Part shown: positions 7,645 to 9,110 of the stretch, piece by piece
How the letters are laid out: each line of letters begins with the position of its first letter
How positions within the stretch are numbered: the first letter of the stretch is position 1
Position numbers and translations under genes: made by a program
Assembly (NCBI GenBank): GCA_002772455.1
Contig: PCSQ01000043.1
Coordinates: forward strand, 1 to 17,396
DNA from: Candidatus Beckwithbacteria bacterium CG23_combo_of_CG06-09_8_20_14_all_47_9
GTDB taxonomy: Bacteria; Patescibacteriota; Microgenomatia; UBA1400; CG1-02-47-37
Length of the DNA: 17,396 nucleotides
Direction: 5' to 3'
The notes under the pieces: model-generated
What the model saw: the letters and a program-made list of their open reading frames with translations, nothing else
The model's database searches: none
What the model was told of the DNA's origin: nothing

Positions 7645-7705
7645 TCACTTCCGGTAACATCTTAGCTAAAAATACTCTCTCTCTGGAAAAATCAATAGGC
7701 AGTTG

Positions 7706-7751
7706 AAAACAACGTCTGGCACCAGTGGCCGCTTGTATCAGGCGTTGTTTT
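7706..7751. repeat. Left 46-bp palindromic terminal repeat
   Basis: Centre GG|CC at 7728/7729. The outer arms AAAACAACG and CGTTGTTTT pair perfectly, and 18 of 23 positions pair overall. It matches the reverse complement of the copy at 8554-8599 at 40 of 46 positions, but the direct orientation only at 35 of 46, so the two behave as inverted terminal repeats. It lies between divergent genes, so a terminator role does not fit; element end or operator does. Confidence 0.85.
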
Positions 7752-7761
7752 ATGTTAAGCT
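7733..7761 (+). promoter_or_regulatory. Possible promoter of the PaaX-like gene
   Basis: TTGTAT (7733-7738), 17 bp, TAAGCT (7756-7761), with the ATG 7 nt further on, again nearly leaderless. The -35 lies in the right arm of the left palindrome, so a protein bound to the palindrome would compete with polymerase. The -10 is poor (three of six). Confidence 0.3.
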
Positions 7762-7768
7762 GAAAGTG

Positions 7769-8554
7769 ATGACTAAAGGCAAGTTTATCCGGGAAAAGAA
7801 TAAACGCCGGATTGAAGAATTGAGCTGGGGACTGGCTTTCCGACTGACTGATTTAACGCTGATTACCCTGTTTCTGGGATTAACCTTATCCATGCCCTCA
7901 AAACACAGCAGTAAATTTTGGGCAAAAACTTTTACAAAAATTAGGGAAAACCTTGATGAGGACCAGATCAAACGGGCATTCTATGGCCTGAAAAAGGACG
8001 GCTTGATCGACTACACCAAACGGCTGTGGCAAAACCCACAGATAACCGCCGCCGGCAGAAAACGGCTGGCGGCGCTGTTACCGCAATATGACAAGACGCG
8101 GACTTGGGACAAACGGCTGTACCTGATTACCTATGACATCCCGGAAAAGAAAAAGTGGCGCCGGGACCAACTGCGGGCTTTTTTGAAAAAAATCGGCTGC
8201 GGCCGGCTCCAAGAGTCTACCTGGATTACTCCTTATAATCCTAAAGAGTTGATTGAAAATTTTGTGACTGAAACCGGGCTGGACAATCTGATCTTAGTTT
8301 CTGATCTTGGCAAAGACGGACAGGTAGGCCAAGAGAGTCTGCGGTCGCTGGTTGACCGGGTATATTGTTTAACGGACATCAATGAGAGATACCGACAGTT
8401 TCTCGAGGATTTAAAATCCAGAAAGATTAGGCAGAGTGATGCTGCTGCTTACTTTTTCTCGATTTTGAGAGACGACCCACAGTTACCGTTTGAGTTACTG
8501 CCGGACGGCTGGCTGGGCGAACAAGCTTGGGAAAAAATCAACCCCTCGAGATGA
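7769..8554 (+). CDS. PaaX-family protein with winged helix and Cas2-like ferredoxin domain
   Basis: 261 residues from the ATG at 7769; an in-frame TTG at 7703 would run translation through the palindrome and is unlikely. Domains: a basic N-terminus; a winged-helix region at about 30-100 (DEDQIKRAFYGLKKDGLIDYT, then QITAAGRKRL); a Cas2-like fold starting LYLITYDIPEKKKWRRDQL with Asp123, then GRLQESTWITPYNP; and the PaaX C-terminal signature DDPQLPFELLPDGWLGEQAW at about 235-254. PaaX is a repressor of phenylacetate genes, but nothing here points to that pathway. The YDIP strand keeps the aspartate used by Cas2 nucleases. No cas1 or CRISPR is nearby. Its stop codon ends at the first base of the right palindrome. 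Likely a DNA-binding regulator of itself or of the repeats; nuclease activity is speculative. Confidence 0.8.
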   Translation: MTKGKFIREKNKRRIEELSWGLAFRLTDLTLITLFLGLTLSMPSKHSSKFWAKTFTKIRENLDEDQIKRAFYGLKKDGLIDYTKRLWQNPQITAAGRKRLAALLPQYDKTRTWDKRLYLITYDIPEKKKWRRDQLRAFLKKIGCGRLQESTWITPYNPKELIENFVTETGLDNLILVSDLGKDGQVGQESLRSLVDRVYCLTDINERYRQFLEDLKSRKIRQSDAAAYFFSILRDDPQLPFELLPDGWLGEQAWEKINPSR

Positions 8555-8599
8555 AAATAACGCCTAAGACCAGCGGCCGCTGGTGCTAGACGTTGTTTT
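8554..8599. repeat. Right 46-bp palindromic terminal repeat, also possible bidirectional terminator
   Basis: Centre GG|CC at 8576/8577 inside a perfect 16-bp palindrome (ACCAGCGGCCGCTGGT). The outer arms are AAAATAACG and CGTTGTTTT. It lies between convergent genes and overlaps both stops (TGA ending at 8554, TAG at 8588-8586). On the plus strand the stem is followed by CGTTGTTTTT, so it could end the PaaX-like transcript, and more weakly the minus-strand operon. Confidence 0.85.
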
Positions 8600-9110
8600 T
8601 GTTTGCCAATAGGTGGTCCAGCTGGTAGTGAAGCTGGTCCAAAGAACCGTTGTTATCCACCAGGTAGTCGGCGATGGCGATGGGGCCGGCTTTATGAGAG
8701 ACTTCAATTTCGGCAATATCCCGGGCCCGGGCTTGCCGGGGAGTCAACTGCCTGACAGCGCGAACGGCCAGGCGCCGGTAGCGGATTTGGGGCCGGGCGT
8801 AGATGACGATTAATTTAAGGCCGGGAAATTTGGGCTGTAAATAGACATACTCTTCCCAGGAATAAAGGCCGTCAAGAATGATTGATTGTTGGTTTTTTAA
8901 CGCCTCATTAATGCGGGGTTCTATTTTAATTGCATAAGCAGCCATCCCTAACTCTTGGCGTAAGTTTTCCCGGTATTTCCGCTCGTTTTCCTCCTTCAGG
9001 GAGAGTCCCTGAAGGCGTAAACCGCGGTCGGTTTCGTCGCCAAAACGCAAAACCGGAAAACCTTTGGCGGCTAAATAACGGCAGGCCTCGGACTTGCCGG
9101 CGCCGGCCAT
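8586..9110 (-). CDS. P-loop kinase, UPF0200 / dephospho-CoA-kinase-like
   Basis: About 174 residues from the only usual start codon, ATG 9110. That start gives MAGAGKSE and would cut the Walker A motif: the in-frame codons before it read VILAVVG, so the full motif is GMAGAGKS. The real start is probably a non-AUG codon at 9123-9131 (CTG, ATC or GTA), right at the adk stop. Other matches to the UPF0200 family (archaeal and CPR nucleotide-kinase-like proteins of unsettled substrate) are SIILDGLYSWEEY, RYRRLAVRAVR and the C-terminal RARDIAEIE...IAIADYLVDNNGSLDQL. The last residues KNNV and the stop come from the right palindromic repeat. It follows adk in the place often used by map. Confidence 0.75.
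   Translation of the reverse strand: MAGAGKSEACRYLAAKGFPVLRFGDETDRGLRLQGLSLKEENERKYRENLRQELGMAAYAIKIEPRINEALKNQQSIILDGLYSWEEYVYLQPKFPGLKLIVIYARPQIRYRRLAVRAVRQLTPRQARARDIAEIEVSHKAGPIAIADYLVDNNGSLDQLHYQLDHLLANKNNV
8993..9015. repeat. Perfect hairpin inside the kinase gene
   Basis: Arms CCTTCAGGGA and TCCCTGAAGG, 10 bp each and perfectly complementary around a 3-nt centre (9003-9005). It encodes RLQGLSLKE in the loop region after the P-loop of the kinase. It has no sequence relation to the other palindromes. Confidence 0.7.

Follow-up and report, generated by a model that had tools for sequence, protein, structure and literature searches.

The window analysed here, a 17,396-nt stretch of Patescibacteria DNA to which all coordinates refer, carries between two operons an 894-bp element (7706-8599) composed of a single plus-strand gene and the two 46-bp palindromes that bracket it. 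The left palindrome (7706-7751, centre 7728/7729) lies 17 bp upstream of the start codon, the gene (7769-8554) encodes a 261-aa winged-helix, Cas2-like and PaaX_C-like protein, and the right palindrome (8554-8599, centre 8576/8577) begins at the stop codon (8552-8554). The listed open reading frame (ORF) starts at a TTG at 7703; relatives favour the ATG at 7769. The left neighbours, on the minus strand, are infA and the alpha operon, with rpsM, and to the right, on the same strand, lie an AAA_18 kinase gene (Pfam; 8586-9110), adk and secY (all names but that of the kinase being read from sequence). The last codons of the kinase gene fall in or next to the right palindrome, with its stop codon (8586) inside it, and its C-terminus is unlike that in the same-genus genome G001.

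We first consider the palindromes themselves, which an earlier note on this DNA had described from the letters alone. Re-measured, they agree with each other at 40 of 46 positions as inverted copies and at 35 of 46 as direct copies, exactly as claimed, and their self-complementarity is 18/23 and 19/23. Over 200 shuffles, the inverted 46-mer match peaked at 29 at most, and within 1.4 kb no palindrome scored above 16/23; the pair is far beyond chance. The same note's description of a minimal one-gene unit with palindromic ends, anatomically like the RAYT genes and their REP (repetitive extragenic palindromic) sequences, also stands. A CAATAGG found on the plus strand at 7693-7699 and again at 8607-8613 could be a decayed target duplication, a weak one, as the pair is not above chance when tested.

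In the Pfam scan, the window protein matches PaaX_M, a Cas2-like domain, with an E-value of 2e-16, and falls just under the cut-off for PaaX_C (21.7 bits vs 22). For CRISPR_Cas2 it is under the Pfam cut-off (21.5 vs 23.8) and over that of TIGR01573 (29.2 vs 24.5), and with the PaaX equivalog TIGR02277 it scores 61.9 bits, far under the cut-off of 264.55. Besides these three Pfam domains the scan gave two weak unrelated families and no Y1 (Transposase_17) domain. No transposase is present among the fold matches listed for the protein, which counts as no evidence either way. The Cas2-type aspartate, at the end of the first strand, is residue 123.

A protein search of the window's genome (884,784 bases, 149 contigs) returned eight rows corresponding to seven family genes, one of them split, and a domain search added an eighth at contig C128. 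A palindrome pair brackets five of the seven, on C124 (the window), C23, C6, C59 and C129, with a different sequence in each; on C44 the pair is shorter (30 bp) and direct, with one copy inside the gene, and C27 and C128 have no pair. Counting this genome, a family match was found in 12 of 37 genomes, and in a class-wide draw 150 of 373 genomes had a match at 1e-12, several of them with at least six. From genome searches and from GTDB contigs, a scan of which gave 38 loci, we assembled a set of 120 distinct ORFs, including 12 canonical PaaX, and scored bracketing by palindrome quality plus the likeness of the four half-sites, an ORF being counted as bracketed at 54 or more of 88. By this measure 73 of the 120 family ORFs are bracketed, compared with 4 among 235 other ORFs of these loci, which bears out the proposal that palindrome pairs go with PaaX/Cas2-like genes in many genomes. 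Two of the four bracketed control ORFs (in L051 and L013) had slipped through the screen: they adjoin a family gene and share its palindrome. When low scorers were rescanned with wider limits, more pairs appeared (e.g. L133, L138 and L179), and some loci, such as L048, L062 and L140, still had none. The 12 canonical PaaX loci, from Bacillales, Rhodococcus and Betaproteobacteria, have no flanking pair, and the Cas2 aspartate, kept in 72 of the 73 bracketed members, is present in none of these 12 proteins. In f17 (the tool's family number), the protein is shorter, ~165 aa, the PaaX_C part is missing in the two members scanned, and most palindrome centres are found 17-23 bp ahead of the start and 5-25 bp beyond the stop.

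Variants of this layout were also seen. In L051 (1794-2531) and L013 (452-1153), a neighbour gene also lies within the element's palindromes, as cargo or as a regulated gene, and in L013/L057, L046 and L024 tandem palindromes with centres 43-54 bp apart lie upstream of the gene, in L013 downstream too. Outside cellular genomes, one scan of viral contigs gave 11 stretches fitting the pattern, none of which was confirmed, a phage search for the family found none, a PHROGs search gave weak matches only, and a plasmid search gave seven records with partial PaaX-like matches.

The palindromes, which are ~36-46 bp long and flank the inserted DNA at either end, follow a common architecture. Over the 73 elements, the agreement of half-sites within an element is 0.71-0.96 at positions 1-5 from the centre, 0.40 at position 9 and 0.68-0.86 at positions 13-19; because the centres were picked for palindrome quality, the core values are biased somewhat upward. 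G occupies position 3 in 96 percent of halves with long proteins and 99 percent with short ones, hence a core C-N-N-N-N-G centred on the symmetry axis (CGGCCG, CGATCG, CACGTG, CTATAG). The site therefore has two zones, this shared core and arms 13-19 nt from the centre that are private to each element. As for orientation, the inverted arrangement is not supported as a rule: the two sites of an element lean direct in 46 cases, inverted in 14 and tie in 13, and when the orientations differ by at least 6 positions the direct form prevails 19 to 1. The window element belongs to the inverted-leaning minority.

We then compared occupied and empty sites. At the window locus, G001 has the same kinase gene and infA without such a gene between them, the stretch 7700-8615 (916 bp) being replaced by 51 bp, with a 25-bp match as left anchor and a 1.1-kb match as right anchor; in G002 the two genes are ~130 bp apart. 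Empty sites in relatives, one of the checks proposed earlier, thus exist for the window element itself. The G001 empty site (L086, 2061-2369) contains an open frame of 103 codons together with a terminator-like hairpin. Elsewhere in the window's genome, the PBP2-dprA site measures 867 bp against 22 bp in G002, and 864 against 12 bp in G001, and an element lies directly after the recR stop codon, which in G003 overlaps the next start. Both the window's genome and f17 genomes have elements after a PBP2-like gene (L004, L178, L180, L182, L176), with proteins that are unlike and dprA near in most; repeated use of the PBP2-side gap is possible.

The clearest trace of insertion comes from L041, the closest relative, whose protein is 59 percent identical to that of the window. 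A 14-mer, ATTTTCCCGCTTGA, borders this element on its two outer edges and occurs once at the orthologous empty site in the window's own genome, after a 65-aa ORF downstream of PNP; on this comparison of sequences it is a duplicated target together with the matching empty site, which places the ends of the element at the outer arms of the palindromes. The L041 contig is labelled Portnoybacteria, and we dropped the idea of a cross-class transfer: its flanks (PNP, the 65-aa ORF and AbiEi, read from sequence) resemble those of the window's own family, and the contig may therefore be misbinned. A general target duplication for the family was likewise rejected, given a single clear case. Short direct repeats outside the palindromes show a mild family-wide excess (at least 7/8 in 11 elements vs 3.5 expected, in one of six settings), with mean matches of 5.6-7.7 vs 5.4-7.3 in two settings. 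L055 and the hairpin in the empty G001 site suggest that host hairpins may serve as insertion targets; on average the flanks show no increase in inverted similarity, though exact 8-mers exceed expectation (4 vs 0.5 in two of three settings), and this mode of insertion is possible. Two further candidates were set aside, L120/L130 as a pair at different sites, since their left flanks are homologous, and an L127 empty site near nusG, too variable to read.

Solo palindromes, whose existence the earlier note had asked about, do occur. A pattern search of the window's whole genome with three palindrome types, allowing up to 3 mismatches, found full solo copies of two of them, three of the C59 (L006) type and one of the C129 (L007) type. 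Two of these four sites lie in frame within long ORFs, one at convergent gene ends and one between rmuC and a GNAT gene, the last being absent from G003. In the 1.3 Mb searched, 24 of the 73 elements have further matches, mostly where related elements have their sites; copies that belong to no element were found near L046, L029, L145 and L051, and the reversed-sequence control gave 0.

The history of one site could be followed in f17, between tRNA-Leu and pepN, where 16 genomes were searched and 12 looked at closely (13 loci). Orthologous elements are present in five genomes (G225, G311, G348, G316, G204), a different element in G359 and a remnant with a lone right palindrome in G139; the site is empty in G093, G327, G283, G277 and at the second such locus of G348, and unreadable in G305. 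Among the five orthologues, the nonsynonymous divergence dN is 0.08-0.24 and the synonymous divergence dS at least 1.0 (saturated) in 8 of 10 pairs and not computable in 2, which indicates a gene under purifying selection over long times. The palindrome core is the same at both ends in four of them, CGATCG in G225 and G348 and CGGCCG in G311 and G204, and differs in G316.

On the strength of the empty sites, the single target duplication and the solo copies, we favour a mobile unit that would operate like RAYT/REP, with an unrelated Cas2-fold protein taking the place of the Y1 transposase. The 894-bp unit is probably a small mobile element in which the sole gene codes for a winged-helix/Cas2-fold protein and each end is a copy of the palindrome that this protein would bind. 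A dimer of the protein would read this site, repress its own promoter at the left palindrome and bring the two element ends together; the protein would then cut DNA through its Cas2-type metal site, a step that we only infer, or pass the ends to a host nuclease, and staggered joining would produce the 14-bp duplication. The sites would drift along with the protein, each element thereby acquiring its own palindrome. The most specific version, in which the elements form a new class of Patescibacteria DNA transposon and the winged-helix Cas2-fold protein is itself the transposase, reading a bipartite palindrome at each end cutting with its Cas2-type metal site and joining with a 14-bp stagger, we put forward as tentative, a possibility that we would not yet bet on.

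Several observations weigh against mobility of this kind. A clear target duplication was found in only 1 of 73 elements, and no near-identical copies exist within a genome, the top identity over 95 within-genome pairs being 0.77. Among close between-genome pairs, the seven whose flanks were compared all have flank sequence in common on one side or both, and are probably orthologous sites rather than fresh moves. Together these three facts imply that movement is rare or old. The link between site and protein similarity is modest, half-site agreement rising from 0.35 in the lowest identity class to 0.51 in the highest, and of the 47 unbracketed ORFs 29 have the Cas2 aspartate as well. Within the mismatch limit above, the window's palindrome has no further copy in its genome, and the C124, C23 and C6 types gave no solo copy in 93,550 further bases of it. 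Finally, the ligase-like gene that holds a solo palindrome has the same length in G002 without the palindrome, so that replacement or selection fits this site better than simple insertion.

The main rival, which we hold to be unlikely though worth serious weight, is an autoregulator cassette: a PaaX-like repressor with operators at its promoter and after its stop codon, forming a DNA loop, spread by ordinary horizontal transfer and duplication, with the solo palindromes as a small regulon. Part of it is shared with the mobile element, since self-repression via the left palindrome is likely: in 34 of the 73 bracketed elements a promoter-like pair (score of at least 9 of 12) straddles the left palindrome and reads into the gene, vs 12, 17 and 10 for the other three readings. 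The window's own left palindrome has no high-scoring promoter-like boxes reading into the gene. The right palindrome fits an operator less well. It is kept whatever the direction of the neighbours (++ in 21, -- in 18, +- in 17 and -+ in 11 elements, with one neighbour missing in 6), and it scores as a promoter in 7 of 31 cases with a co-directional neighbour and in 8 of 35 otherwise; we thus rejected it as the promoter of the next gene, which leaves it as an element end or a looping partner. Moreover, just one of the four solo sites in the window's genome immediately precedes a start codon, an autoregulator would not be expected to leave a 14-bp target duplication at the edges of its palindromes, and the twelve canonical PaaX loci lack the pair. 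The operator test proposed in the earlier note gives a split answer: the window palindrome is indeed found at this locus only, as follows from its being private to each element, and the gene order around it is not common to relatives.

An improbable alternative is a passive unit moved by a host recombinase acting at the palindromes, with a protein that only binds and regulates. The direct lean of the sites suits recombination sites, and a tyrosine recombinase-like gene (read from sequence) adjoins the L028 element. dif sites are palindromic. In the Xer-dependent dif modules, genes likewise lie between short recombination sites. However, such a recombinase would need a shared site, and the sites here are private to each element, with no shared host site; in the element-free sites inspected by eye there was no palindrome, bar an unrelated hairpin in G001. 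A stable toxin- or defence-like gene, with palindromes for autoregulation or retention and the Cas2 fold as a VapD-like nuclease, would account for the kept aspartate, the patchy presence and the purifying selection, and according to PMC8987985 and PMC3150331 Cas2 is related to VapD and thought derived from VapD-like toxins, yet this explanation is very improbable, as it leaves target duplication and solo palindromes unexplained and a comparison of seven bracketed members showed no recurrent partner gene.

Those seven members (L006, L007, L015, L023, L024, L029 and L030, with L023 taken as bracketed by the pair scan only) have no neighbour common among them. Palindrome-less genes behave otherwise in part. 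In the window's genome (L005, on C27) and in three relatives (L018, L020, L017) a palindrome-less PaaX/Cas2-like gene stands beside comEC/metallo-hydrolase-like genes (read from sequence), L016 having one of these neighbours; this comEC-side type is a form fixed in the host, perhaps with a link to DNA uptake. Another neighbour set is common to L025-L027 and L038, the palindrome-less L019 shares none, and the bracketed L015 shares its downstream gene with the palindrome-less L025. Elsewhere in the window, at 1571-2819, a retroviral-type aspartyl protease-like ORF is directly followed by a PD-(D/E)XK nuclease ORF (Pfam).

Compared with known systems, the favoured mobile element comes closest to RAYT/REP, where, according to PMC2817692, one gene lies between two cognate palindromes, one of them near the stop codon, sites vary between genes and change with them, and palindromes occur elsewhere in the genome too. 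It differs in that the protein has a PaaX/Cas2 fold and no Y1 domain, the pairs lean direct, the window element excepted, extra copies are few (0, 1 and 3 for the three types in the window's genome), and a 14-bp target duplication is seen in one case; also, RAYT genes are reported in the same paper to evolve fast, whereas the family gene here is under long purifying selection. PaaX repressors have the same three-part layout, and the best solved structure match of the window protein is 8a39, but canonical PaaX has neither the Cas2 aspartate nor flanking palindrome pairs. CRISPR Cas2 resembles the family in its Cas2-like domain with an aspartate at the first-strand end and in the repeat-like palindromes that flank inserted DNA; unlike in Cas1-Cas2 adaptation, a winged helix is added and Cas1 (PF01867) is found in 0 of 18 carrier genomes searched, with the control positive in 9 of 14. 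The earlier suggestion of Cas1 help in trans falls with this result. Casposases make 14-15 bp target duplications according to PMC6977970, like the one in L041, yet the element here has one gene, no Cas1 and less than 1 kb. An open-access literature search, judged by titles and abstract openings, gave no described element with a Cas2-fold protein as its sole gene, and no paper naming PaaX and Cas2 together. Overall, a gene that has settled at many different places in the genomes of these tiny uncultured bacteria suggests a mobile type distinct from each of the known families compared.

If true, this would add a mobile-element type outside those families; with the protein itself as transposase, it would be a mobile, Cas1-free relative of CRISPR Cas2, in which one could look for a source of both Cas2 and palindromic repeats. 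Were such a one-gene element widespread, the origins of Cas2 and palindromic repeats would become testable in a living system, and genes annotated as Cas2 or PaaX in these bacteria may belong neither to CRISPR systems nor to phenylacetate regulation.
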